Assembly (NCBI GenBank): GCA_029232285.1
Contig: JAOXFI010000053.1
Span: 1 to 50,346 of the forward strand
Length of the DNA: 50,346 bases
DNA from: Agmasoma carcini (nom. nud.)
Taxonomy: Eukaryota > Microsporidia > Thelohaniidae
Reading direction: 5' to 3'
Shown here: one piece after another, positions 6,375 through 47,237 of the stretch
How the letters are laid out: each line of letters begins with the position of its first letter
How positions within the stretch are numbered: position 1 is the stretch's first letter
Made by a program: the position numbers and the translations under genes
Notes under the pieces: model-generated
The model's input: the letters and a program-made list of their open reading frames with translations, nothing else
Databases searched by the model: none
Told to the model about the DNA's origin: nothing

Positions 6375-9300
6375 TTATTTCTTAATAGCCTTTAACAGAT
6401 TTAATAGCTCTTCTACATTTTCTAAATAGCAATCAGCATAACTTCTGCCACCCCCTATCTTAACACTTATTCCTTTGCAACTATAGAACATATCCTCATC
6501 AGTAACATCATCACCAACACAAAGATCAGGATTCTCTCTAATGCATACCTTGTCTTTTGATGAAGATACAACCTCAACCACTTTCTTACCATGTATGATA
6601 TTGTGTGTTCCAATTCTTTTACATTCTTCTACCATCCTTTCAGGGTTAAAATCATCATTTCCTCTATAGTGGAATGCATATCCTGTTGATTTATCTTCAA
6701 TCTCTGTCCCTGGATATCGTTTTTCATAATATTCAAGAATACTCCTGTAGATGATTGGACTCTTCTTTTCTATAAGTTCACTCCATTCACCATCTACTCT
6801 TACATAAGCACCATGTTCAGCATATACCTTGATTTCCTTAGGGAACCACTCGTCTACAACCTTTTTAGAACGTCCAGTGCACAAAATCAAATCATCTTTA
6901 TAAAAACTCAAGATCAAATTGATCAATTCTTTTGTAGGTTTGGCATTCTCTGGTGATTTTTGAACAGGAAAGAGTGTGCCATCGTAATCAAGCAATAGCT
7001 TGCAAGGTGACTTAGCTTTACAATAATCAACAATTGTATCAATATCGCCTTTCTTTAATTCTTTAACCAATTTCTTCAATATTTTTGTTTCTTTATCAGC
7101 TTCACTAACTTTAACCTCCTCAAATGAAGGTGAAGATTTTGAACTTATAAATGAAGGCTGTTTTACTGGAGTGGAACTACTTTTATCATTACCTGATGAT
7201 GATAAAAGTACACTGTCTTCATTTACTGAAACATTTGTTATATTTTCTTCAATTTCTGGTGAATCAAGCTTAGATAAAGTGCTAAGCTTTTCATCTCCTT
7301 CAACCAAATGGCAGCTATCATTTTCTTCACAAACCTTAACCTTTGATATTTTTACTTCAACTGTCTTTGGTTCTTCTTTTGAAATATATTTTTGTCTATT
7401 GATTTTTAGTGTGATTTTATCATCCTTAGCTGGTTGATCTTCAACATGACAGCTTATCTTTTCAGTAACAGGTTTTGATTCTTCTTCAACCTTTATATTT
7501 TTACTTGGATATTCTTCAATATGACAGCTTTTCTCTTCACTGATAGATTTTGTTTCCTTTTCAGTTTTTATACTTCCACTTTGTTTCTCTTCACAAATAG
7601 ATTTTGTTTCCTTTTCAGCTTTTATACTTCCACTTTGTTTCTCCTCAAGATGACAACTTTTCTCTTCACTGATAGATTTTGTTTCCTTTTCAGCTTTTAT
7701 ACTTCCATTTTGTTTCTCTTCACAAATAGATTTTGTTTCCTTTTCAGCTTTTATACTTCCACTTGTTTGTTCTTCAATATGACAACTTTTCTCTTCACTG
7801 ATAGATTTTGTTTCCTTTTCAGCTTTTACATTTTCACTTGGTTGTTCTTTAATATGACAGCTTTTCTCTTCAACAACAGGTTTTGTTTCTTTTTCAGCTT
7901 TTATACTTTCACTTTGTTTCTCTTCACTGATAGATTTTGCTTCTTTTTCAGCTTTTACATCAACAACTTTTATAACTTCATTTTCAGGTTTTAAAGATTT
8001 AACTTCCTTCTTTTGATCTTCACAAGGCTCTTCCTTAATTGAAGCTTCTTTTTTTGATCTCACAGATGAAGCATCTGACATAACACACTCTTGATATTTA
8101 TTAACTGTTTTTTCATGTATTGATATTGCTTTCTTAGACTTACTTTTATCTTCCTTGACACTAACAACCTCTTCTTTCTTTTCTAAAGACTTTTTATCGC
8201 TCATAACACTCTTAGAGCTACTATCAGACATGACAGCCTTAATAATCTCAGAAATGGTTGATTTTATTGAAGAACTGGCTTTGCTTATAACAGATTGTTT
8301 CTCATCTTTAAACATTTCCTTTTCTTTTAATTCAGATAAAGTTTGTTGTAAATTTAAAGATTTTTCATCAATTTTGATTGGTTCAGATTGTGCTTTAACT
8401 TGATCATTTTCTTCTTTTTCATCGGTCCCTTTTAATGGAACATCTACAACAACACCTTCTAAATTCTCAATTTCTAAAGGAGGAACATCTGCCGTTGATT
8501 CAGTTGAGCTTTGAATGCTTCTAGTCAGAGCAGTTATGATATCAATTTGTTCTTTTACATCTGATGTTGTTTCTTTTGCTATTTTTTCAAATTCTTTCAT
8601 TTTTAATTTTTTTGATAATTCTTCCTCAACAAAAGATTCTCTATTCGGATGGCTTTCAGGTACTTTTAATAACATATTTTGGACGAGAATCTTCAATAAT
8701 TCTTGATCTATTGTTGAATATAGATTTAAAACATCTTGATCACTCAATATGTCATTTCTAGATTCAGAGTATAGTTCTGGAGAATAACCATAGATATTCA
8801 TTTCTTCTTCTTTAGGTTCATTTCTATCTTCTATATGAATATTTAAACCTTTAATGTCTTCTGTCATATAAATTGATGTGACTTGACATGTACCATCACA
8901 CTCCTCGTTTTCTTTTTTATTGCAAGTACAAATAACTATTTTTTGTCTTAATGTTGTTTTTTCCTTTAGATTGTTCAACATGCAATAGAATTGCTCCTCG
9001 TTGAAGTAATCAGATACGATTTTGACATCAACATCAACTAATGATGTTGATTTTCCAAATTTTGTAGATTTGAACTTATTTCTAACATCTAAAATAAAAT
9101 TATCTTTGTCATAATAAATATTTTGTTTTTCATATGTGGAATTGGTATTGAATTTATCTTTAACTAAGAAGTTGTTGATTTCGGTATCAAAGTTGATGTA
9201 ATGGGCCAATAAGTATTCTTCTATTGTTTTGAAGTATCTTACGTTGTAGTTATCATTCTTATAAGTAAAATCATCCACTAATAATCTTTTTCTGCCATCA

Positions 9301-9551
9301 ATTTCTAAATTTTTGTTAGAAATTAGTTCTTTAAGTGTTCTAAAATATTTTGATTTATCAATGAAGGGTTTAACTGTGTTAAAACCTATTTTATTGTCAA
9401 AAGAGACGACAATTGCTTCTGATGTTATGCTTTTTATGATTTCTTTGATTCTATCAACTGAAAAGCTATCAATAGTGACTAAGTCCTTAGTGTATTCTAT
9501 TTTTTCTTCATCACTTAGACTAACCAAAAATATTTGGATCATTGAAATCAT
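6375..9551 (-). CDS. TPS2: trehalose-6-phosphate phosphatase (Tps2-type) with a long repetitive middle
   Basis: The 1058-residue product ends in a HAD-type trehalose-phosphatase domain of about 230 residues, which removes phosphate from trehalose-6-phosphate. DYDGTLFPV is the nucleophile motif, CTGRS motif II, AEHGAYVR and GKKVVEVV family motifs, and VGDDVTDEDMF the Mg-binding motif. All catalytic acids are present, so it should be active. The N-terminal ~330 residues might be a degenerate GT20 synthase-like region, but I cannot show that. Between them are about 500 low-complexity residues rich in Glu, Lys and Ser, including repeats around KAEKETKSISEEKSCH at roughly 7440-7990. Two ATGs three codons apart could both be starts. 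Microsporidian Tps2 proteins normally lack such a large insert. Confidence 0.85.
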   Translation of the reverse strand: MISMIQIFLVSLSDEEKIEYTKDLVTIDSFSVDRIKEIIKSITSEAIVVSFDNKIGFNTVKPFIDKSKYFRTLKELISNKNLEIDGRKRLLVDDFTYKNDNYNVRYFKTIEEYLLAHYINFDTEINNFLVKDKFNTNSTYEKQNIYYDKDNFILDVRNKFKSTKFGKSTSLVDVDVKIVSDYFNEEQFYCMLNNLKEKTTLRQKIVICTCNKKENEECDGTCQVTSIYMTEDIKGLNIHIEDRNEPKEEEMNIYGYSPELYSESRNDILSDQDVLNLYSTIDQELLKILVQNMLLKVPESHPNRESFVEEELSKKLKMKEFEKIAKETTSDVKEQIDIITALTRSIQSSTESTADVPPLEIENLEGVVVDVPLKGTDEKEENDQVKAQSEPIKIDEKSLNLQQTLSELKEKEMFKDEKQSVISKASSSIKSTISEIIKAVMSDSSSKSVMSDKKSLEKKEEVVSVKEDKSKSKKAISIHEKTVNKYQECVMSDASSVRSKKEASIKEEPCEDQKKEVKSLKPENEVIKVVDVKAEKEAKSISEEKQSESIKAEKETKPVVEEKSCHIKEQPSENVKAEKETKSISEEKSCHIEEQTSGSIKAEKETKSICEEKQNGSIKAEKETKSISEEKSCHLEEKQSGSIKAEKETKSICEEKQSGSIKTEKETKSISEEKSCHIEEYPSKNIKVEEESKPVTEKISCHVEDQPAKDDKITLKINRQKYISKEEPKTVEVKISKVKVCEENDSCHLVEGDEKLSTLSKLDSPEIEENITNVSVNEDSVLLSSSGNDKSSSTPVKQPSFISSKSSPSFEEVKVSEADKETKILKKLVKELKKGDIDTIVDYCKAKSPCKLLLDYDGTLFPVQKSPENAKPTKELINLILSFYKDDLILCTGRSKKVVDEWFPKEIKVYAEHGAYVRVDGEWSELIEKKSPIIYRSILEYYEKRYPGTEIEDKSTGYAFHYRGNDDFNPERMVEECKRIGTHNIIHGKKVVEVVSSSKDKVCIRENPDLCVGDDVTDEDMFYSCKGISVKIGGGRSYADCYLENVEELLNLLKAIKK

Positions 9552-10192: not shown

Positions 10193-11146
10193 TTATTGAT
10201 TAATTACTCTTTTAAACTCTTCAAGTGATGATTCTTTTTCAAATTTAAGTTTAAAACTTCTTTCAACTATTTTTTCATTGTTATCTTCATCAAATATTTT
10301 AATTTTCATCTTAAAAAAAATATCATTTGAATCATTAAAAATAAATTTTAAGTCTCTAATGTTGTCCTTAATAATTTTAGTAATGAATTTTCTAGAAAAT
10401 ATAAAAATATCATTTCTTATATAAATATAACCTTCTCCAAATTCTAAATATTCATCCTCATCCATATAAAAGAGTGTACATTCACCAATACAATCATTTG
10501 ATACCTTTACGTCTTCTTTTTTCTTGATATCCTTGATTTTCATTGTTAAAAATGAAGATTTAATACCTTTTTTATTATTATTACTATTAGTAGTATTATT
10601 TTTTTTTAAAAAAATATTTTCAGATTGTTCAGTTTCAATTTTAAAAACAGATTTGGTGGTTTTTACCTTCTTTGGAGAGTCGAAAACGGTAGTATCTGAC
10701 TTTGTAGGTTTGTAAGTATTATTTTTTTCAATATTTTGAATAGTATCATCATCCTTATCAATAATATCATTAATAGAATTATTCTTATCTTTTATATCAT
10801 TACCATAATTTTTGTTATTTCCATTATCATCATCCTTATTATTATTATCATCATTATTATTTCCATTATTTCCATTATCATCATCATTATTATTATTATC
10901 ATTTTTTATTTTTTTAACATTTGAGCTATCTTTATTGGATATATCACTACTTTGAGATTGATTAGAAGCTTCTTGAGTCTTTATACTATCATTTTCTGAA
11001 TCTATATCATCTGAGAAAGTTATATTAGTTGATTCTTGTGTTTCTTTGATAGTACTTGAAGTATCTTTAGTCTTATGATCTTCTTGTAAAGATTTATCAC
11101 TTGATAGATTGTCATCACTATTCTCTTCATGGTCTAAACCAACCAT
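10193..11146 (-). CDS. RanBP1-like domain protein with acidic/Asn-rich N-terminus
   Basis: The 317-residue product has a hydrophilic, Ser/Asp/Asn-rich N-terminal ~200 residues, including a D/N/G stretch coded by near-triplet repeats. A compact C-terminal ~115 residues follows. That part reads like a RanBP1/Nup2-type Ran-binding domain: ECTLFYMDEDEYLEFGEGYIY corresponds to the LFRFDxExxEWKERGxGxV strand, and the end (FKLKFEKESSLEEFKRVI) to the final strand and helix. I infer a Ran-binding nucleoporin or Ran cofactor acting at nuclear pores. A plain PH-like domain is the alternative. The start ATG follows TTTCCTATCCT with AAATTTT upstream. Confidence 0.5.
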   Translation of the reverse strand: MVGLDHEENSDDNLSSDKSLQEDHKTKDTSSTIKETQESTNITFSDDIDSENDSIKTQEASNQSQSSDISNKDSSNVKKIKNDNNNNDDDNGNNGNNNDDNNNKDDDNGNNKNYGNDIKDKNNSINDIIDKDDDTIQNIEKNNTYKPTKSDTTVFDSPKKVKTTKSVFKIETEQSENIFLKKNNTTNSNNNKKGIKSSFLTMKIKDIKKKEDVKVSNDCIGECTLFYMDEDEYLEFGEGYIYIRNDIFIFSRKFITKIIKDNIRDLKFIFNDSNDIFFKMKIKIFDEDNNEKIVERSFKLKFEKESSLEEFKRVINQ

Positions 11147-15286: not shown

Positions 15287-16666
15287 TTATTCATCAATTT
15301 CAGCATCGTTCAATAATTCCTTTTTACTCATCCCCGTTCCTTCAATTACACCATCAATAATATCCTTTAATAATCTTTTCCTTTGTTTAAATAATTTTTC
15401 AACTTTAAATAAGGTCTCCTTTCTTTTGTCCCAACTTTCTTTATCTACAATTTCTTGATTCAACAAATCTTCATTCTCTTCTGCCCTTCTCTTAAAGTCT
15501 TCAACCTGAATTTCCATATCTTCATTACTTAATTCCGTCTCTAATTCGTTCAAATCCAATTCTAAATTAACACAAATGTTCTTTAATTCTCTAAACACTT
15601 CCATTTTCTCACTATACCTCTCTTCAAGATCTTCACTATATTCATCATTTTGAACTAAGCAATAAAAAACAGATTTTGATAGATTTTTTGAAAAAATTAT
15701 ATTCTTTTTAACCAAAGACTCTAAACCTTGTTCTAACATCTTCTTTTCTGATTTAAATTGTAAATTAAGCTCAGTCATGTTAACTGGCTTGTTTAGGAAG
15801 TAAAAATATGTGTATAAACGATTTCTAAAGGCTTTTAAATCTTCATCCGTTATTTTAGATTTTTTTACCTTTTTATTTCCCTTATTTTCATCAGTAACTT
15901 TCTTCTTATTTTGTTTCTTTTTAGGTTCTATTGATACATCAGTAGAGTCGTCATCATTACTTTGTTTGTTCTTTCCTTTCTTTTTAAGAACAGGTGAAGC
16001 ATCAGTAGAGTCATCATCATTACTTTGTTTGTTCTTCCCTTTCTTTTTTGGTGTAAGTGATGATACATCATCATTAGGTTGTGATTCTTTAATATTTTGA
16101 CTATATTTCTTTTTTGAAGCTGTTGATGATGATACATCATCATTAGGTTGTGATTCTTTAATATTTTGACTATCTCTCTTTGATAAAATCGAATTTTCTT
16201 TATTTTTAGTTACTAAAGCTTTTGACTTATCTTTATGATTTGATCCTTTTGATTTAGCTGACTTCTTCTTAGATGGTGTTGACATATCTGTAGAATCTTC
16301 TACATCTGATTCAATATTATCACCATCTGAAGATGTAAATAATGAGGTTGTTTCATCATCTGATTCTAAATCATTCACACCTCCTCTTCTTCTTGATTTT
16401 ATTATAACTTCTTCTGACTTAACTTCTTCTGACTTAACTTCTTCTGACTTAACTTCTTCTGACTTAACTTCTTCTGACTTAACTTCTTCTGGCTTAACTT
16501 CCTCTGACTTAACTTCTATCTTAAATTTCTTGCTATTCTGTGAATCTAAGTTGTCATCAGTGCCTTTTTGTTGTGATTCTGTGCTTAGTATGTTAAAAGA
16601 ATCTGTGAATTGACTTATATCTACACTTAATTTGCTTATATCTTCATCTTTGTTCTCCTCTTTCAT
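15287..16666 (-). CDS. HOP2: Hop2/TBPIP-like meiotic protein with repetitive N-terminal extension
   Basis: The 459-residue product has its recognisable part in the last ~190 residues. A winged-helix segment (LYTYFYFLNKPVNMTELNLQF ... LESLVKKNIIFSKNLSKSVFY) is followed by a coiled coil and the segment WDKRKETLFKVEKLFKQRKR. This order matches Hop2/TBPIP, which with Mnd1 promotes strand exchange by Dmc1/Rad51 in meiosis. The N-terminal ~265 residues are low-complexity Ser/Lys/Glu with near-exact repeats (VKSEE x about 7; NIKESQPNDDVSS x 2; KKKGKNKQSNDDDSTD x 2). Normal Hop2 is about 220 residues. The ATG at 16666 is preferred over an in-frame TTG two codons upstream. A generic winged-helix coiled-coil protein is the alternative. 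Confidence 0.65.
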   Translation of the reverse strand: MKEENKDEDISKLSVDISQFTDSFNILSTESQQKGTDDNLDSQNSKKFKIEVKSEEVKPEEVKSEEVKSEEVKSEEVKSEEVKSEEVIIKSRRRGGVNDLESDDETTSLFTSSDGDNIESDVEDSTDMSTPSKKKSAKSKGSNHKDKSKALVTKNKENSILSKRDSQNIKESQPNDDVSSSTASKKKYSQNIKESQPNDDVSSLTPKKKGKNKQSNDDDSTDASPVLKKKGKNKQSNDDDSTDVSIEPKKKQNKKKVTDENKGNKKVKKSKITDEDLKAFRNRLYTYFYFLNKPVNMTELNLQFKSEKKMLEQGLESLVKKNIIFSKNLSKSVFYCLVQNDEYSEDLEERYSEKMEVFRELKNICVNLELDLNELETELSNEDMEIQVEDFKRRAEENEDLLNQEIVDKESWDKRKETLFKVEKLFKQRKRLLKDIIDGVIEGTGMSKKELLNDAEIDE

Positions 16667-35912: not shown

Positions 35913-37001
35913 ATGCCATTTCCAACCAACCTAATTGACTATGTCAACATTGAAAAACCCCCCTTAACAACCAAATTATCGTTAGTTATACTTAAATTCT
36001 TACCTTCAACCACTCAAAGGCTGATATTCGACCTTCTTCATACAAATATTAACTATTCCTTTCTTATGGATTTGGAGAATATAAAAGAAGATCTAAAATT
36101 GCTATTTAACCTAAATTTAATCACAAAAGACAACAATTTAATAAAACTAAGTCATAAATTTAGAGATAATCTGCTTCAAGGTTTCTTAAAACAACCAGTA
36201 GGTTTTAAAATGATCAATAAAAGCTTTTCTAAGATTCTAAAAGCAATAGTTCAGCCAAGACAAGATCCTTTCCTTAATTTTTGTAAGTTAATAGACATGA
36301 ACAATCAAATAACCAACAAAGGATTTGAATTTCTGATGTTTAGCAAGAAAAATCAAGGTTGGTTCTTGATATTTAATGCTATTAAGTATGTTGGGAATGA
36401 AAAAAAAAATTTTGAAAATCTTTTAGATTTGATCTTTGAACCTTCAACAGAAATAAACAAAGAGTTTTATAGAATTCTTGAATCAATTGGATTTATAGAA
36501 AATAACAAATTTAAACTTGAAGATTTATTTATGGAACATCAGCCATCTGAAAAATATTTAATTTTAGAAACGAATTATAAAATTTACGCATACACTGAGC
36601 AAGAGTATGAGAAAAGTATATTAAAATTGTTTTCTGAGATAGAATATGAGTTACCTAATTTGGTTAAAGCTAGATTTAGTGAAGGTTCTGTGTTTAGAGC
36701 GTTTTCAAAGGGGATAACTGCTGATCAAATTATTAAATATTTAAATAGTTATAGCTTTGAGGTGCCTGCAGTTATTAAAAATCAACTATACATTCTTCAG
36801 AACAAACTTAGAAGGCTGGAAATGTCAGATTCGATCTTGATTAGAGATTTTATACATTTGTATGATTATCAAAGTGTGCTTAAGTATGTTAAGGAGAAGG
36901 GTGCTTTGATATTTGAATCAGAGTCTATGAGGATGATTGTTGCTGATGAATCAATTATAGATGATTTAAAAGATTTTGTTAGGGAGATAGAAAATAATTA
37001 A
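35913..37001 (+). CDS. TFB2: TFIIH subunit Tfb2 (p52)
   Basis: From the inner ATG at 35913 the product is 362 residues. It has the helical N-terminus of Tfb2, TQRLIFDLLHTNI and LKLLFNLNLI with LIKLSHKFRDNLLQGF, then FLMFSKKNQGWFLIFNAIKY and KLFSEIEYELPNLVKARFSEGS VFRAFSKGITADQIIKYLNS. The C-terminal SDSILIRDFIHLYDYQSVLKY and KEKGALIFESESMRMIV is the Tfb5-binding domain that anchors XPB/Ssl2. It acts in transcription initiation and repair. It is shorter than yeast Tfb2 (about 510), as usual here. The open frame begins 16 codons earlier, but the alignment starts at the inner Met. Confidence 0.85.
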   Translation: MPFPTNLIDYVNIEKPPLTTKLSLVILKFLPSTTQRLIFDLLHTNINYSFLMDLENIKEDLKLLFNLNLITKDNNLIKLSHKFRDNLLQGFLKQPVGFKMINKSFSKILKAIVQPRQDPFLNFCKLIDMNNQITNKGFEFLMFSKKNQGWFLIFNAIKYVGNEKKNFENLLDLIFEPSTEINKEFYRILESIGFIENNKFKLEDLFMEHQPSEKYLILETNYKIYAYTEQEYEKSILKLFSEIEYELPNLVKARFSEGSVFRAFSKGITADQIIKYLNSYSFEVPAVIKNQLYILQNKLRRLEMSDSILIRDFIHLYDYQSVLKYVKEKGALIFESESMRMIVADESIIDDLKDFVREIENN

Positions 37002-37298
37002 TAAATTTATAGTTTTTTGATTAGTTAATCTAGTATATGTTAGGTTAGTCAGTTAAGTTAAGGTGATGATTAGTCGGTCAGATTAGATAATCAGGCTAGT
37101 ACAAGTTAATCAGTTAAGTTAAGGTGATGATTAGTCGGTCAGATTAGATAATCAGGCTATTACAAGTTAATCAGGCTATTATAAGTTAATCAGGCTATTA
37201 TAAGTTAATCAGATTAGCTAATCAGACTAGTACAAGTTATTCAGTATGTCTAGTTAGTTAATAATATGGTTTAATATTTTATAGCTTTTCTCTTAATA
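37002..37298. repeat. tandem repeat, ~61-bp unit (GATTAGTCGGTCAGATTAGA)
   Basis: Two adjacent near-identical 61-bp units (AGTTAAGTTAAGGTGATGAT.. GATTAGTCGGTCAGATTAGA ..) at about 37050-37170 are followed by shorter ~21-bp sub-repeats (ATTATAAGTTAATCAGGCT) to about 37245. They lie downstream of Tfb2 and stop just before the Tc1 tip at 37299. Confidence 0.9.
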
Positions 37299-37879
37299 CA
37301 CTGAAAAGAAAACCGGAACCCCTTAAAATGATTGATTTGGTGATGTATCAAAAAAATTTAATAAATATTGTTATGATTTTAAGGTTAGCTTGTGTTTTTA
37401 ATTTTTCATATCATGTTAAATATTTTTTACGAATTTTGTAAATTTGGCTAAAAAAATCTTAATAAATGCATTATATATATTTCTCATGGTATAAATTAAT
37501 TTTTAACAAGGTTATCTGGTATATTATACCATATTTATAACATTTCATTATTAAGATCATTTATTGATTTAAACCTTTTTTAGCTTGTAAGTAAAAGGAA
37601 TGACATTAATAAATTAATAATTGTTTCATATATAAATATTATTATAAATATATTGATATTATAAATGCAACGGTTGCTTGTATATAGATACAAATTTAAA
37701 AAGGGTAACATGTTTATGAAACCGTTCCTTAAAAATATCCTAGTTAATAAATCGAAGATATCTATGTATATACAAACTTTTAGATGTATATAAGATTTAT
37801 ATAATTTGAAAATATATTTAAAATTTTATTACACATCATAAATATTAATAATCAATAAATAATACGCAATTTTAATAAA

Positions 37880-38560
37880 AAGAATATTTAAAGTAAATGC
37901 TCAAAAACTACTCTTGTTAATGATTTATAGTTTCTTTCGAATACAAATCTACTTAAATATAACTCAATGCAGTGTCTTCTTCTGTAATCACTTCCAAAAA
38001 GCCATTTTTAAATAATCCCCAAATACATTCAATTGACTGAGTATGAACTATCCTGTTGGTTGGCAAGACGAAATTCAAAGAGTGGTTAACCGAATCATAT
38101 GCACGCTTATCATTTCACTAAAGAATGACATATATACAGAACTACAATCGTTAAAAAACTAGTGTTTGCAACAATGAAGTCTTTTTTCACACTACATAAT
38201 GTTTTTTTATCAACGTATCGAAATTTGTTATTTTTCTTTTTTTGGCTAATAAAGTTTCATCGATTTCTATTTTATGTTCGACTCCCAGTGAATTGAGCAA
38301 AGGTCAAGATGAGTCTTAATTTTCTGTCACCATTTTAATAATTTTTGGTACAATCTTACGAAATATTTGAATTTTTAAGGATATTTTTGTTTCATCAAAC
38401 AAAAAAGATTAATACTCATAAAATATCATTGATTCTTATACCTTCAAACATCTTACTCCCCCTTAACATCACACTTCTTCCTGCAATAAGATCTAAAACC
38501 CATTGCTTTAGAATTGTTAAAATGTATACTTAGAGTATTATTACACCTTTAAAAATACAA
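37880..38560 (-). pseudogene. Merlin (ISXO2-like) transposase relic, copy 2
   Basis: Minus-strand pieces: VEHKIEIDETLLAKKRKIT at about 38283-38227 with the first catalytic Asp motif, then AYDSVNHSLNFVLPTNRIVHTQS and IECIWGLFKNG at about 38105-37995, one uninterrupted frame through to a stop near 37953. The SDEW motif between them is eroded. It resembles copy 1 (VNHSVNF, HTQNIESYW) more than copy 4. Confidence 0.8.
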
Positions 38561-38599
38561 AATTATATTGTTTTGATTTAATTCAGATAGCAAGCAAAC

Positions 38600-39650
38600 C
38601 AATTACAGTTCTTCGTTAAGTTTAAAAAGACAAAATTTTCAAAACCCCAATGCTTGTCTAAACAGAGCAACAAGCAGAGCCAAAAAACCGACCGGAGAGA
38701 TGAAATAAACCCTCTGAGATGGAACAAACCCTTTGAGATGAAACAAATCCTCTGAGATGAAATCCATTTATATATTTATTGAGATACGATCTGCTATGGC
38801 AATATTTTTTATCTCCTGTTTCGTTTAATCTTGCACCGTTATATAACGATTTATATAGAAATTCTATTATATAAATATTCTATGTTAGTTCCTAATGTCT
38901 CTCCTATTAACTCACAAGCCCCTCTTTTTATATAACCCTAAATATATTCTATTGGATTTAAATCGGGTTGCTAATCTGGTCAATCCATGATATTAATATA
39001 ATTTTTATTTAAATATGACTTTGTCTTGTTGAAAAGTAAACTAACTTAATCACATTATTTATGCTGAAGGATGTGAATTTTGTATATAAATCAATATAAT
39101 CACATAAATTTAACCTTTTATTTAATAGAACTAATCTTTTGCCTGAAACACAACCCCAATACATTAAACTACCACCTCTGGATTTTGTGTTTTTATTGAT
39201 GCACTCTTCTTTGCCCTTTCATTAAGCTTAGAATTGAACCCATAGTTTTATATTATTTTAATGGTATTTTGAATTTGAAATATTCTTTTATTTCCACCTT
39301 AAACGAGTTTCTTTGTGTAGTTTTAGTCAAAAAAGATTTATTAGTTGCAACTCTTGCATATATATTTATATAATACAATCTGTTTTTATAGTTATTGGTG
39401 TTGCATATAATGACAAGGTTTTTGTGAAAAACGGATTTTTTATAATTATTATTTTGCATTTCTAAACTATTGATATTGTTGTAAAATATCTTGCATTGAT
39501 GACTTTGTTAAGGCTGTGTTTTAGAAATATTTCTTATTGAAAATTATCCTTTAGAATTCTCATACGATTTTTAAAAATGATGGATTGAAATGGTTTTTTT
39601 TTCCAAATTTATAAAATTCGATCTAACCTAATAATTATAACAATATTTAT
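38600..39650 (-). pseudogene. Tc1 transposase relic (family C)
   Basis: Minus-strand pieces: SLMYWGCVSGKRLVLLNK at about 39178-39120 (the VMVWGCxSxxG motif), FQQDKVIF near 39035-39012 (QQDN motif with Asn changed to Lys), and QPDLNPIEYI near 38973-38940 (SPDLNPIE). The distance between the second Asp and the Glu codon is only about 25 codons, so part of the spacer is deleted. Stops occur within each motif region. Confidence 0.75.
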
Positions 39651-39754
39651 TAAAATGTTTTAATACGTCACCAAAAATAAATCATTCGAGGGGTGTCCGG
39701 GTATTTCCCGCTATTGTATTATAACTAACTAAATATAACTAACTAACTAATCAT

Positions 39755-39940
39755 TTATAAATAAAAACCTCTCAACTCATTTCCCCTTACTTTCACTACT
39801 TTATTGTTCTTCTCATCCAAAAGTACAGTTATATTCATTTTGCTATCTATTTCTAATATTTTACCATCCATTTCACCTTTCTTAAGGAATATTTTTGTTT
39901 GTTTGTTGATATTTTTCTTAAGATATGTTAAAATTTTCAT
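39755..39940 (-). CDS. SMD1: Sm protein D1-like, minimal
   Basis: The 61-residue product is a bare Sm fold: MKILTYLKKNINKQTKIFLK resembles the SmD1 start ([20 protein letters not shown]), then GEMDGKILEIDSKMNI is Sm1 with the conserved G and D..MN. VKVRGNELRGFYL is Sm2 (IRGNNIRYFIL). The family-typical RG-rich tail is absent and the linker between Sm1 and Sm2 is short. It belongs in the spliceosomal snRNP core ring. The ATG follows TTAAAAATAACCAT. Another D-type Sm or LSm assignment is possible. It starts only 38 bp from the tip of the family C transposon at its 3' side. Confidence 0.7.
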   Translation of the reverse strand: MKILTYLKKNINKQTKIFLKKGEMDGKILEIDSKMNITVLLDEKNNKVVKVRGNELRGFYL

Positions 39941-39949
39941 ATGGTTATT

Positions 39950-40125
39950 TTTAATCTAATTTATACTATACATAGCCTAATGTATATAACCTGATAATCT
40001 AATATATATAACCTAATATATAATAAACTAATGTATATAATCTGATAACCTAACACATATAACCTGATAATCTATATTATACATAACCTAACATATATAA
40101 CCTAATATATACTTAATCTTCTATA
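39950..40125. repeat. minisatellite (TATATAACCTGATAATCTAA)
   Basis: A run of ATATATAACCTAATATATAA / ATATAACCTGATAACCTAA variants fills the gap between the SmD1 start and the stop of the next gene. Confidence 0.85.
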
Positions 40126-40135
40126 CTAACTTTAT

Positions 40136-40570
40136 TTAAATAAGTTCCCTAACATGAAATGCTGCTTTACAACCTGCCCCTGATATTACAATAGACTCAT
40201 CATTCTCTGATAATTCATCAATACAAACTAACTCTGGTCTTTTTTCCAAATCATAAATATTTTTATCTAATATCAAAGTATTAGCTTCAAATGAATTATC
40301 AGATGTTGTTACTTCATATTTATTGTTATTAAATTCAATTTTTATAATATTTTCATCAAATATTTTAATTCCCATGTTTTTTGCTTGGTTATAGCAATTT
40401 TCCAAAAAATCTTCATTATTTATATTTGGAAAGCCACCAATGAAAGTACACTTAGATTGCAATACTTGATTTGTTCTTATAATAAGAGGTACTTTGTTGG
40501 AAGTATGTAAATAAATGGCAGCTACATATGAACCTGGACTGTTACCTATAATAATTGTTTGTATTTCCAT
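40136..40570 (-). CDS. miniature thioredoxin-reductase-like FAD-fold protein without NADPH domain
   Basis: The 144-residue product begins like thioredoxin reductase: QTIIIGNSPGSYVAAIYLHT (FAD dinucleotide fold), FIGGFPNINNEDFLENCYNQ, then MGIKIFDENIIKIEF and NTLILD. It then jumps straight to ELVCIDE...ESIVISGAGCKAAFHVREL, matching the extreme C-terminal FAD segment (GVFAAGDV...AAGxGxxAAxxAxxYL). The whole central NADPH-binding domain with the CxxC site (about 130 residues) is missing without breaking the frame. The GxGPAG loop reads GNSPGS. It cannot be a working reductase. The ATG follows AATTTTTTTTATCC and the frame is clean, suggesting a maintained gene. Confidence 0.7.
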   Translation of the reverse strand: MEIQTIIIGNSPGSYVAAIYLHTSNKVPLIIRTNQVLQSKCTFIGGFPNINNEDFLENCYNQAKNMGIKIFDENIIKIEFNNNKYEVTTSDNSFEANTLILDKNIYDLEKRPELVCIDELSENDESIVISGAGCKAAFHVRELI

Positions 40571-40755
40571 GGATAAAAAAAATTATGCAAAAAAATATAT
40601 TATAATGCATAAAAAATAATCAATATCATAATGCATAATAATTCAATACTAACATAAAAAAAATTCAATATCATGATGCATAATAATTCAATACTAACAT
40701 AAAAAAATAATTCAATACTAACATAATAACTTAATTAATTTAATAATTAAATTTC
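40571..40755. repeat. AT-rich repeat with ATGCATAATAATTCAATA
   Basis: Three or four copies of a CATAATAATTCAATACTAACATAAAAAA unit separate this gene from Elp4. Confidence 0.8.
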
Positions 40756-41529
40756 TTAAAATAACGTACAATCATTCTTTTGATCATTTTCCTCAGGTGG
40801 GATATCAATTTTCTCCAATAAACAATTAGTACGTCTCGTCCTTAATCCATACTTAACACTATCTAAATCATTAACTCTAAGTCTTTTATAACTACAAAAC
40901 CTATTTATATTCAAAATACAACTATAAATACTTCTAGTCTGAACTGTAACGGTATTTTCAATCTTAATTACATTATCAAAGAATTGATGAACTTTTATAT
41001 CATTTAAAAATAATGGCATTGATAAATAAATTGCATGATTATTTTTTCTTGTAATTTCTTTTAAATTATATAAAAATTCTTCTTTTTGATCAATTTTATA
41101 AAAAAGAGGTGAAAACAATGAAAATATAACGAAAATCTCGTTTTTCGTATCACTTAATTTCATAAGAAAGTCGTCCAATGATAAATCTTCACTTCTACTC
41201 TCTTCCTTTGTCATATCAAACTTAAATGAATTATCATCTAATACTAAATTGTTGTATCTCCAAGCAATTTGCATCTCTTTGTTTAAGCCTGTGCAAATAT
41301 TTGTCTTGTTCTGGTATCGAAACCTTTGTTTTTCATCTACACACATAACATTTGCTTTTTTATTCTCAGAACAAAATATTTTAAGTATTAAATTATGCAA
41401 ATTAGTTAGAGGATCTTCTAAGAATAAAGTTAGTGTTCCTCTTTCTACATCTATAAGTGAATCAAGTGTTGGTATTCCTGTTTCTATCTTTATTTTATTA
41501 TCTTTTGATGTATTTCTTACGAAAGGCAT
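40756..41529 (-). CDS. ELP4: Elongator subunit Elp4
   Basis: From the ATG at 41529 the product is 257 residues. It has the RecA-like fold of Elp4 in reduced form: IKIETGIPTLDSLI (GxPxLDxLLGGG in relatives, Gly-rich loop lost), LTLFLEDPLTNLHNLILKIF, FVIFSLFSPLFYK for the Walker B-like strand, and at the end VKYGLRTRRTNCLLEKIDIPPE, the clearest Elp4 signature. In the Elp456 ring it supports tRNA wobble-uridine modification by Elongator. The upstream in-frame Met codons lie within repeat sequence; the chosen ATG follows AAAAATTTATCCA. Confidence 0.8.
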   Translation of the reverse strand: MPFVRNTSKDNKIKIETGIPTLDSLIDVERGTLTLFLEDPLTNLHNLILKIFCSENKKANVMCVDEKQRFRYQNKTNICTGLNKEMQIAWRYNNLVLDDNSFKFDMTKEESRSEDLSLDDFLMKLSDTKNEIFVIFSLFSPLFYKIDQKEEFLYNLKEITRKNNHAIYLSMPLFLNDIKVHQFFDNVIKIENTVTVQTRSIYSCILNINRFCSYKRLRVNDLDSVKYGLRTRRTNCLLEKIDIPPEENDQKNDCTLF

Positions 41530-41569
41530 TGGATAAATTTTTATATAAAATATTTTATGCATTTGCATA

Positions 41570-41758
41570 AAAATTAATATTACCAAATTTATGCCTATTA
41601 CCAAATTTTTATATATTATACCTATTATTAAATTTATGCATTTACATAAAAATTAATATTACCAAATTATATATATTATGCCTATTACCAAATTATATAT
41701 ATTATACCTACTACCAAATTTATATATATTATGCCTATTACCAAATTTATATTATTAC
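41570..41758. repeat. minisatellite (TTATGCCTATTACCAAATTTATATA)
   Basis: Six or so copies of a ~27-bp unit containing CCTATTACCAAATTTATATA lie between the Elp4 start and the next gene's stop. Confidence 0.9.
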
Positions 41759-41764
41759 TTTATT

Positions 41765-42541
41765 TTATATCTTTTGCCACTCTTCTAAATAAATTTTATT
41801 CTCTTTTATTCTAATATCAAAAAAATTATTAGTAATTTTTTTAACTGTTCTTAAAATATTTATGCCTTCTGCATAATCATTTTCTCTTAATCCATATTTC
41901 AACTCATCCCAAACTATATTACAAAGAACATAACAATTATCATTATCATAATCTAAAACATCTATTTTAAGGTCTACTTTATCATTATTTATTATCTTTT
42001 TATCCATTTCATAGTATTTTATTAATATTTCATCAATTAATTTAAATTTATAAAAATTTCCATTGTTAGAATCTAAATAAATTATTTCTTCAAATATTTT
42101 TCTTAAGGTGCTTCTTTTTAAAAATTTTATACATTTTCTAATAAGTATAAAATTAAATATTTGATTTTTATTTATGCAATCTTCAAATAAATTATGCATA
42201 TTTGTTAATTTTTTTAAAATAATTTTATCAATATTTAAATTAATTTTTAAATAAGGAATTTCATTTATAAAAGAATCTAAATTATTTTCAATTATATTTT
42301 TTAAATTAAAAAAATAAGAAAAATAATGCAAATCTTGAAAGTTGCATAAATAAAATTTAGTTAATTTTACAAGAGTTAGATTTGAAATAGAAAGTGATGA
42401 TATATTTGGTAAAGTAAGATTATGGTCATTAGTACTGATAGAATTTGATATGTAAGAGTCTAAACTACCATCTAAAGTTGAAATTTGAATATTAGAAGTA
42501 GATTTGGAAAGTTTTTTAAAAAGTTCATCAAGTTTATGCAT
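41765..42541 (-). CDS. hypothetical protein, 258 residues
   Basis: I do not recognise the family. The product is Asn/Ile/Leu/Lys rich and mostly helical, with no membrane segment or signal peptide. It starts MHKLDELFKKLSKSTSNIQI. The C-terminal 70 residues look like a small mixed domain (LKIDVLDYDNDNCYVLCNIV ... GINILRTVKKITNNFFDIRI). The ATG follows AATTTTTTTTCCAT, as for its neighbours. It is part of a run of six minus-strand genes (SmD1 to the CM1 protein), which does not by itself imply a shared function. Confidence 0.65.
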   Translation of the reverse strand: MHKLDELFKKLSKSTSNIQISTLDGSLDSYISNSISTNDHNLTLPNISSLSISNLTLVKLTKFYLCNFQDLHYFSYFFNLKNIIENNLDSFINEIPYLKINLNIDKIILKKLTNMHNLFEDCINKNQIFNFILIRKCIKFLKRSTLRKIFEEIIYLDSNNGNFYKFKLIDEILIKYYEMDKKIINNDKVDLKIDVLDYDNDNCYVLCNIVWDELKYGLRENDYAEGINILRTVKKITNNFFDIRIKENKIYLEEWQKI

Positions 42542-42559
42542 ATGGAAAAAAATTATGCA

Positions 42560-42668
42560 AAAATATATAATTTAAAAATAATAAAATATATAAAATATAA
42601 AATATAAAATATAAAATATAAAATATAAAATATATATAAAAATATATATAAAAATATATAATAAAATA
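42560..42668. repeat. AAATATA simple repeat
   Basis: ATATAAAATATAAAATATAA repeats between two minus-strand genes. Confidence 0.8.
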
Positions 42669-42669
42669 A

Positions 42670-43086
42670 TCATTCATTCATTTTGCATAAATCTGAATTC
42701 TTTATGTATTCCCTTAACTTATTAACATCTAAATATTCTCTATTTCCTAACTTTTCAAATCCAACAAGAGTATCAACCAAATAACCATCTTTGAAAAAGG
42801 CAATGAAAGGTAAAGTTTTAATTTTCAAGTCTAAAACCATTTTCTTAGCATTTTCTACATTAATTTTACAGAAATGAACATCGTTAAACTCATTTGAGAG
42901 AAAATCTAATTTTTCATTGACCATTTGACATTTTTCAAATTCTTTATGATAAAAATGAATTATCATTGTTTTTGACATGACCATTTCAATAAGACAGTCT
43001 TCATCATATTCTTTAACACTAACTTCACACTTTCTTCTAACATAATCATTGTAAAAGTCTTCATCAATGTATTCATCATAATTCAT
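42670..43086 (-). CDS. PLP1: TXNDC9/Plp1-like phosducin-family thioredoxin-fold protein
   Basis: From the ATG at 43086 the product is 138 residues. After a short acidic helix comes a thioredoxin fold typical of phosducin-like Plp1/TXNDC9: MIIHFYHKEFEKCQMVNEKL (VCHFYxxxFxRCKIMDKHL in relatives, one Cys instead of CxxC), FCKINVENAKKMVLDLKIKT LPFIAFFKDGYLVDTLVGFE KLG. These proteins assist the CCT chaperonin in folding tubulin and actin. An open frame continues 77 codons further upstream through a 66-bp tandem repeat; the inner start is chosen because AAATTT TTATGTAAAAAAATTTGC precedes it and relatives end there. Confidence 0.75.
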   Translation of the reverse strand: MNYDEYIDEDFYNDYVRRKCEVSVKEYDEDCLIEMVMSKTMIIHFYHKEFEKCQMVNEKLDFLSNEFNDVHFCKINVENAKKMVLDLKIKTLPFIAFFKDGYLVDTLVGFEKLGNREYLDVNKLREYIKNSDLCKMNE

Positions 43087-43330
43087 GCAAATTTTTTTAC
43101 ATAAAAATTTATAATTAACAAATAAATTATGATCGAGTTCGATTCCCATATAAGACCATAAACTAGGACTAAATATAATTTCTATATATAAATTATGATC
43201 GAGTTCGATTCCCATACAAGACCATAAACTAGGACTAAATATAATTTCTATATATAAACTATTATCGAGTTCGATTCCCATACAAGACCATAAACTAGGA
43301 TCGAATTCAATTCCCATATATAAACTATGA
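43087..43330 (-). repeat. in-frame 66-bp tandem repeat upstream of the Plp1-like gene
   Basis: Three to four copies of a unit containing GATCGAGTTCGATTCCCATA and CATAAACTAGGACTAAATA. Each encodes, on the minus strand and in frame with the downstream gene, 22 residues of the type MGIELDHNLYIEII + FSPSLWSC, with an ATG in every copy and no stop. Confidence 0.9.
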
Positions 43331-45656: not shown

Positions 45657-47237
45657 ATGACAATTCCAATTCTATTTGGCTCTCAAACTGGCAATTCTTA
45701 TCATTTAGCTAATTTATTAAGTACAAACTTTGATTCTTATGTTATGCCAGTCAGTGATTTTACAAAATATGACGGTTTTGTGGTTTTTATAATCTCAACT
45801 GCTGGTGATGGTTCATTCCCAGTTGAATCTATGAAATTTTATAATTTTTTAAGAAATTCAATTGGAAAAATAAAAATAAATATAAAATTTGCTATACTTG
45901 GCTTGGGTGATTCATCATATGAAAAATATAACTTTGCTTCTAAAATAGCATCAAATCTACTTGAAAGGTTGGGAGGTGAGTGTGTATTGAAGGTTTTTAG
46001 TGATTCACAAGATAAAAATGGGTTTTATGATGGTTATTATGAATTTACAAAGAATTTAAGAAGTATTCTTAAGACAACTTTATACAAAGTTAATGATAAA
46101 TATTATAATGAAGATTTATATAATAGTCATTATACTAAATGTGATACTAAATATGATAATAAATGTGATACTAAATGTGATAATAAATGTGATAATAAAT
46201 GTGATAATAAATATGATAATAAATATGATAATAAATATGATCATGATACTAATTATAGTCATGATAATGTTACTATTTATAGTCATAAATATGATCATAA
46301 CACTAAATATGATCATGACACTAATTATGGTCATCCTTCAGAACCTTTCACTGTTGAAATTATTGATAAAAAATCAATCACTTCTGATGTATTAGAAATA
46401 ACTTTTAATATTGATCATAATTTTACACCTGGTGATTCAATTTTAATTAGTTTTTTAACAAATCGTACATTTTTATATCAAATTGATTTCTTATATTTAT
46501 CTACCCTAACTAACACAAAGATATACAAAGATAAGCTAATATCCATCTATAATCACTATGACGAGTATTATTCATACATTGTACTACCAAAAAGAACATC
46601 TATTGATGTATGCAATGATTTTAACATAAATTTTGAATTTTATAGTAAAATATTTAGATTTTACACAATATTCAAATCTGGTAATTTTTACAAAATTTAT
46701 ATTAAGAAAGTTCAACATAAATTTAACAATAGAAAAATTAATGGAATTTGCAGTCACATTTTACAATATTCAAATATTTTAAATATTAACAAAATTTGTA
46801 AATCTAATTTATATATTAATTTTGATAAAAAGGTTTTAATATTTTGCACTGGTGTTGGTGTAAGTCTTGCCAGGTGCTTTGAATCGAATAATTCTACTAT
46901 TTACTATAATTTTAAACATTTAGATGATTCAATTGATATAGGAGATGGTGTATATGTGGCTAAAGATGATCAAAGTTATCAAAATAATTTAAATTTTTTA
47001 AAAAATAAAAAAGTACAAATTTTATCAGAAGATAAAAGAATTGATGCTAAAGTTTACTATTGTAGTAGTAGAGATTGTAATTCTTATATAACTGAAGCAT
47101 ATAAGCAGAATTATATTGAGAATATTGATGATTATATAATATTTGCTTGTGGTACTTACAAAATTAATAGAAGCTTAAGGGATATGTTTAAAGAAATATA
47201 TAAAAGAGATATAAAGTTTCAATCTGAGACATGGTAA
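45657..47237 (+). CDS. TAH18: diflavin reductase Tah18/NDOR1 with a Cys-Asp-Asn-Lys repeat insert
   Basis: The 526-residue product passes electrons from NADPH through FAD and FMN to Dre2 in cytosolic Fe-S cluster assembly. The FMN domain (about 1-140) shows ILFGSQTGNSYHLA, IISTAGDGSFPVESMKFYNF and FAILGLGDSSYEKYNF. Residues ~160-228 are an insert of CDNK/YDNK tetrapeptides coded by a 12-bp repeat (TGTGATAATAAA), followed by YDHDTNYSH-type units. The FAD/NADPH half is shortened: FTPGDSILISF, RFYTIF, KVLIFCTGVGVSLARCF, and the C-terminal YIIFACG ... FQSETW with the family's terminal ETW. The insert sits in the flexible linker between the domains, so activity may survive. Confidence 0.85.
   Translation: MTIPILFGSQTGNSYHLANLLSTNFDSYVMPVSDFTKYDGFVVFIISTAGDGSFPVESMKFYNFLRNSIGKIKINIKFAILGLGDSSYEKYNFASKIASNLLERLGGECVLKVFSDSQDKNGFYDGYYEFTKNLRSILKTTLYKVNDKYYNEDLYNSHYTKCDTKYDNKCDTKCDNKCDNKCDNKYDNKYDNKYDHDTNYSHDNVTIYSHKYDHNTKYDHDTNYGHPSEPFTVEIIDKKSITSDVLEITFNIDHNFTPGDSILISFLTNRTFLYQIDFLYLSTLTNTKIYKDKLISIYNHYDEYYSYIVLPKRTSIDVCNDFNINFEFYSKIFRFYTIFKSGNFYKIYIKKVQHKFNNRKINGICSHILQYSNILNINKICKSNLYINFDKKVLIFCTGVGVSLARCFESNNSTIYYNFKHLDDSIDIGDGVYVAKDDQSYQNNLNFLKNKKVQILSEDKRIDAKVYYCSSRDCNSYITEAYKQNYIENIDDYIIFACGTYKINRSLRDMFKEIYKRDIKFQSETW

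Follow-up and report, generated by a model that had tools for sequence, protein, structure and literature searches.

The 50,346-nucleotide contig JAOXFI010000053.1 of the microsporidian Agmasoma carcini (nom. nud.; assembly GCA_029232285.1), analysed in full and referred to here as the window, carries on its minus strand (40136..40570) an open reading frame (ORF), identified by ORF scan and family matches, for a 144-residue protein, P0001, which consists of a thioredoxin reductase (TrxR)-derived flavin adenine dinucleotide (FAD) domain only. The interpretation favoured here, with a probability of about 0.6, is that P0001 is a constrained, non-catalytic pseudoenzyme that has lost the NADPH/CxxC domain of TrxR, retains the FAD-type fold and acts by binding. 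A low-molecular-mass TrxR would have been duplicated, probably in the microsporidian line, a point that the tree does not decide, to give the ancestor of P0001. The NADPH/CxxC domain would then have been lost with the neighbouring portion of the second FAD segment, so that little now separates the first FAD segment from the probable last FAD helix; the hydrophobic fold pattern is kept, and the product may now be a non-catalytic binding partner.

Homology to Thioredoxin Reductase and the Missing Domain

P0001 is encoded by a single ORF of 144 codons running from ATG to TAA. Residues 4-101, the first FAD segment (40268..40561, minus strand), match positions 2-106 of 300 in the TrxR family TIGR01292 (NCBIfam; E 3e-11, 42.7 bits, where the cut-off for whole proteins is far higher at 343.45 bits) with the next NCBIfam families much weaker, and a search of the genome with the TIGR01292 profile returned the same interval and strand at E 3.6e-10. 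Solved TrxR structures match P0001 from E 2e-6, a profile built from 121 TrxRs (the genome's own TrxR and 120 homologues) scores 33.6 bits over residues 4-101 and the match to Pfam Pyr_redox_2 (E 3.3e-4) lies under the family cut-off. These matches bear out the initial annotation, which had proposed a TrxR-like protein in one open frame without naming the strand. A full-length TrxR of 297 residues (L001) is encoded elsewhere in the genome. BLASTP between this own TrxR and P0001 is not significant (best E 0.97), so that either the two copies diverged early or P0001 changed rapidly. Over its first 101 columns P0001 is 16-33% identical to 35 TrxRs and 21% identical to the own TrxR, and it is therefore not a copy of a working gene with a gap.

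No CxxC, GGGxxA or HRRxxxR motif is present in P0001, whose cysteines lie at residues 41, 59, 116 and 134 only. No NADPH/CxxC domain was found nearby among 216 translated fragments of window positions 37001-42600, the best outside P0001 reaching 1.3 bits against the TrxR profile. The landmarks of the own TrxR are an ATG motif at about residue 105, CAVC at 129, GGGDTA at 146, HRRDDFR at 169, FYAIGH at 224 and GLFACGDV at 260, and the stretch absent from P0001 corresponds to about 105 to 259 in this numbering. In the TrxR of M. mazei residues 116-240 make up the NADPH domain, and the hinge strands lie at 112-114 and 242-244 (excerpt of PMC6262447). By these borders, P0001 has lost the complete NADPH domain and its two hinges together with some 35 residues that belong to the second FAD segment. 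The junction falls at residues 102-110 or so (40241..40267, minus strand), where the ATG motif is also absent, and a 10-residue loop with GGQLTTTT has been lost separately. The claim that the domain was cleanly excised therefore overstates the case, as the cut does not coincide with the domain border.

Gene fission, with the NADPH domain persisting as a separate gene, was considered and is not supported. TIGR01292 at E up to 10 matches the own TrxR and P0001 only, and PF00070 at E up to 1 matches the own TrxR and two other reductase/dehydrogenase-like ORFs, which we read from their sequences as adrenodoxin-reductase-like and glycerol-3-phosphate-dehydrogenase-like.

Cofactor Site and Predicted Fold

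Compared with 35 TrxRs, the first segment of P0001 keeps 26 of 31 hydrophobic columns, a retention reached by none of 5000 shuffles, and has turned 5 of 47 polar columns hydrophobic. Columns conserved at 80% or more are kept in 13 of 33 cases, those lost including G11, A13, G33, T38, T39, N43, P45 and T103. The FAD motifs of TrxR are GxGxxG, ATG and GxFAAGD (excerpt of PMC5627308). In P0001 the glycine loop, already noticed as altered in the initial annotation, reads GNSPGS (residues 9-14; 40529..40546, minus strand) in place of GSGPAA/G, the ATG motif is absent and GxFAAGD has become VCID, of which the aligned Asp118 alone remains alongside Gly9 and Pro12 of the glycine loop. With all three motifs changed, the last of them for the most part, FAD binding is doubtful and in P0001 probably weak or absent altogether. 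As judged from the sequence, the FAD-type fold has kept its hydrophobic pattern but not its cofactor site. AlphaFold2, given a TrxR alignment, predicts a closed FAD-type fold (predicted local distance difference test, pLDDT, 82.9; predicted template modelling score 0.80) with a helix at residues 129-143.

Coding Evidence

The codon log-odds of P0001 against intergenic trinucleotides amount to 0.196 bits per codon (0.135 in the head and 0.355 in the tail), compared with a leave-one-out mean of 0.177 (range 0.011-0.326) for 18 of the 21 other window genes, the repetitive or low-complexity ORFs at 10193-11146, 15287-16666 and 45657-47237 having been omitted. None of 134 intergenic chunks reached the score of P0001 (maximum 0.060), and the five other frames of P0001 reached at most 0.015. 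In simulations of neutral drift that started from random coding strings, decay to 25% amino-acid identity brought a mean of 10 stops and left none of 1500 runs open, with open runs numbering 0 of 2000 at 35% identity and 4 of 2000 at 50%. The sequence TTTTATCC adjoins the ATG upstream (40571..40578, minus strand). A CC within 8 nucleotides upstream of the start is found in P0001, in 11 of the 21 other window genes (the inner, likelier ATG being taken for two of them) and at 97 of 1006 intergenic ATGs, in keeping with the start motif having been called normal. On the plus strand, no ATG-initiated ORF of at least 60 residues overlaps positions 38000-43000 and frame 1 at the locus has many stops. 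The window as a whole is AT-rich, with a guanine plus cytosine content of 21-29% in 2-kb steps. P0001 is very probably a real gene, known from one genome, and its coding sequence appears to be constrained with the catalytic residues lost, a constraint judged from that one genome and not from a ratio of non-synonymous to synonymous substitution.

The Probable C-terminal Helix

Retention of the C-terminal FAD helix at about residues 125-144 (40139..40198, minus strand) is probable, with moderate statistical support. The local best diagonal of the tail within the last 30 profile columns was matched by 24 of 2000 shuffles, and that with the C-terminus anchored by 74 of 20000 shuffles and by 2 of 1217 control 43-mers drawn from the 21 other window proteins. 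A full-length MAFFT alignment places residues 125-144 on the last FAD helix with residues 102-124 scattered. The tail reaches 9.2 bits when scored against the NADPH domain, less than its own shuffles do on average; when it is run straight into that domain 637 of 1000 shuffles do as well, and the difference between the two end-to-end scores is equalled by 44 of 1000. The neat fit of the tail in the joined alignment is partly by construction, as the cut point was chosen by the analyst. Of the two ends of the FAD domain originally described as kept, the first is shown by homology and the second is probable.

Relatives and Comparison With Known Systems

The closest matches of the own TrxR are microsporidian TrxRs, the best at 54% with Glugoides, Nucleospora, Enterospora and Vairimorpha at 51% (among the 120 matches listed). 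In a tree built from the first FAD segment, from which the mostly gapped Terramyces and Salinispira rows were left out, the own TrxR groups with Nucleospora, Hepatospora, Enterospora, Ecytonucleospora and one more row (support 99/93). A clade of P0001 with the microsporidian-type TrxRs (23 versus 13 rows) is neither shown nor rejected by the approximately unbiased (AU) test (p-AU 0.497), and a clade with the 7-row Enterocytozoonidae-type group has p-AU 0.378. When P0001 and 10 joined TrxR rows were used as a profile and at least 8000 candidates were scored, no orthologue appeared among the 120 matches listed. Pattern matches in viral contigs (14) and prokaryote genomes (52) included no relative. 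Among the publications listed, no title concerned a microsporidian TrxR relative of this kind.

Judged by motif patterns, both FAD halves without the NADPH glycine motif were found in 20 of the 120 matches listed, some of them merely owing to the strictness of the pattern. Nine of the 20, of 184-245 residues, lack the NADPH domain partly or wholly (P0155, P0156, P0185, P0186, P0194, P0200, P0206, P0218 and P0221); P0162 (244 residues) lacks part of the domain and keeps the glycine motif. All nine retain GxGPAG and the GD motif, with ATR for ATG in P0156, and each is a single sequence. These nine are more suggestive of recent deletions, or of sequence lost in gene models or assembly, than of relatives of P0001. 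The 135-residue P0154 of Vittaforma corneae (VICG_00568) was rejected as an orthologue with the same deletion, having its FAD loop, GGQLTTTT and ATG intact and ending after FWQKGY; it represents an ordinary TrxR N-terminus, likely from a broken gene model, a truncated gene or a frameshift.

P0001 resembles low-molecular-mass TrxR (TIGR01292) in the sequence and hydrophobic pattern of its first FAD segment and in the probable last FAD helix, and differs from it in having no NADPH domain or CxxC, degraded FAD motifs and 144 rather than some 300 residues. The novelty claimed for a FAD-fold pseudoenzyme is weakened by a previously known TrxR-related Thermus protein that is too short to accommodate an NADPH domain. 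This protein, TTHA0370 of Thermus thermophilus (PDB 2cvj/2ywl, 180 residues), has, like P0001, a TrxR-type FAD domain, a likeness judged by length and extent of match and not by FAD motifs or ligands. In contrast to P0001 it is bacterial, and 2cvj is not among the 51 phmmer matches of P0001 at E up to 10; the joined TrxR profile matches 2cvj through the first FAD segment (E 2.5e-9). GliT, HlmI, DepH and AclR act as FAD-dependent oxidases. They share the TrxR-type FAD fold with P0001 but have both domains in chains of about 300 residues, and a CXXH motif is named for AclR in its PDB title. DvTRi (5nii), with a pseudo-NADPH domain (excerpt of PMC5627308), and the ferredoxin-dependent FFTR (6gnd; excerpt of PMC12796991) have the TrxR fold without the usual NADPH function, but both, unlike P0001, keep the second domain and FAD.

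Alternative Explanations

Several observations weigh against a constrained pseudoenzyme of this kind. Scored over the whole profile, the tail is equalled by 107 of 2000 shuffles, because a competing register, which gives 15.5 bits at the end of the first FAD segment, outscores the helix (14.5 bits). In the strictest form of the test, end to end on the joined FAD segments, 87 of 1000 shuffles equal the tail, as do 20 of the 312 control 43-mers. The AlphaFold2 model is biased, as the alignment supplied had already put residues 125-144 on the FAD helix, and prediction from the single sequence failed (pLDDT 33). The tree branch of P0001 is saturated, at 10 changes per column in an alignment of 36 rows and 101 columns, and the tree does not decide where P0001 came from. 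The drift simulations overstate constraint if much of the divergence arose while P0001 was still an enzyme, making a recent loss of function less strongly excluded. The M. mazei TrxR without flavin has a compromised or abnormal dimer (excerpt of PMC6262447), which speaks against pairing of P0001 with TrxR. Six protein candidates yielded no orthologue at E up to 1 in searches that needed exact shared five-residue words and had microsporidian genome DNA outside their reach; absence of an orthologue is therefore not shown, and whether the deletion is shared, as the initial annotation envisaged, is neither shown nor refuted.

The competing register was also considered as an internal beta-hairpin duplication relating the tail to the end of the first FAD segment (5 of 2000 shuffles there), and was set aside with 2 of 30 identities by eye.

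The alternative that survives best, doubtful as it is, is a C-terminally shortened TrxR paralogue in which homology ends at residue 101, the 43-residue tail is new and no domain has been re-joined. The non-significant end-to-end test would fit this, as would the failure of BLASTP to find the own TrxR, helix included, and the phmmer scores of about 0 bits or less for the tail (among the matches listed), but the anchored test, the MAFFT placement of residues 125-144 (with the scatter before them), the low score against the NADPH domain and a codon usage more gene-like in the tail than in the head argue for a retained helix.

It is improbable that P0001 is a minimal redox protein that binds FAD and transfers electrons without NADPH in the manner of a free-standing flavin domain. 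The existence of TTHA0370, the kept Gly9, Pro12 and Asp118 and a flavodoxin-domain, diflavin-reductase-like gene 5 kb away are consistent with such a role, against which stand GNSPGS in place of GxGxxG, the missing ATG, the deleted GGQLTTTT loop and the change of G33, T38, T39, N43 and P45 alike.

Decay as a pseudogene, open by chance or through recent loss of function, appears very unlikely. The lack of an orthologue in searches of limited reach and the very long tree branch would agree with it, but the frame is free of stops where neutral runs almost never stay open, head and tail alike use codons in the manner of genes, the hydrophobic pattern is preserved and the start signal is normal. 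The chance in-frame pseudogene raised in the initial annotation is thus disfavoured by the simulations and codon usage, with recent loss of function still conceivable on one genome. Least credible of all is an artefact of assembly or gene model, the domain being absent because the assembly dropped it. There is a single assembly, tandem repeats flank P0001 on both sides and the nine short database TrxRs may be such artefacts, but the repeats do not extend into the ORF, and the FAD motifs show the degeneration that loss of function would be expected to bring.

Neighbouring Genes

An Elp4-like (PAXNEB) gene lies directly upstream of P0001 on the same strand (40756-41568, minus), its first in-frame ATG being 39 nucleotides before the ATG at 41529, which has the better start signal. 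Just downstream is a 61-residue ORF (39755-39940, minus) with a weak LSM-domain match (E 0.084). A thioredoxin-fold ORF at 42670-43317 (minus; Pfam Thioredoxin E 8.7e-10, Phosducin 4.3e-4), resembling TXNDC9/phosducin-like proteins, opens with an in-frame repeat run (MGIELD...NLYIEIIFSPSLWS), and its true start is probably near 43086. The diflavin-reductase-like flavodoxin-domain ORF (45657-47237, plus) has a long KYDNKCD / HDTNY repeat insertion. Further away, a 1058-residue ORF (6375-9551, minus) has a trehalose-phosphatase domain near its C-terminus and long EKETKSISEEKSCH-type repeats.

Possible Role and Significance

On the chemistry of the family, P0001 could not run the TrxR reaction because both CxxC and the NADPH site are absent, and it would be incapable of thioredoxin reduction. 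With the FAD site degraded as well, it is probably a binding protein, and since a full TrxR is encoded elsewhere it need not serve as the reductase of the parasite. In E. coli TrxR two thirds of the dimer interface comes from the FAD domains (excerpt of PMC6262447), which favours pairing between P0001 and TrxR. Given that a TrxR without FAD reportedly dimerises abnormally, our estimate for such pairing was lowered from one in four to one in five, and it should be regarded as unlikely. The fuller proposal, that a cofactor-less FAD-fold pseudoenzyme rebuilt from both ends of the domain regulates the sole full TrxR found through mixed dimers at the FAD face, is more speculative again.

Should P0001 be a constrained pseudoenzyme, it would show how far a TrxR can be stripped while a constrained coding sequence persists, the discontinuous fold having first shed its inserted domain and its cofactor site having degraded afterwards. 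That a genome of 4.26 Mb (69 contigs) should retain, next to its full TrxR, another TrxR relative that is catalytically empty suggests a non-catalytic function. Trials of TrxR as a target for controlling Nosema ceranae, a parasite of bees, are under way (excerpt of PMC11320372), and an endogenous partner of TrxR would therefore be of interest.
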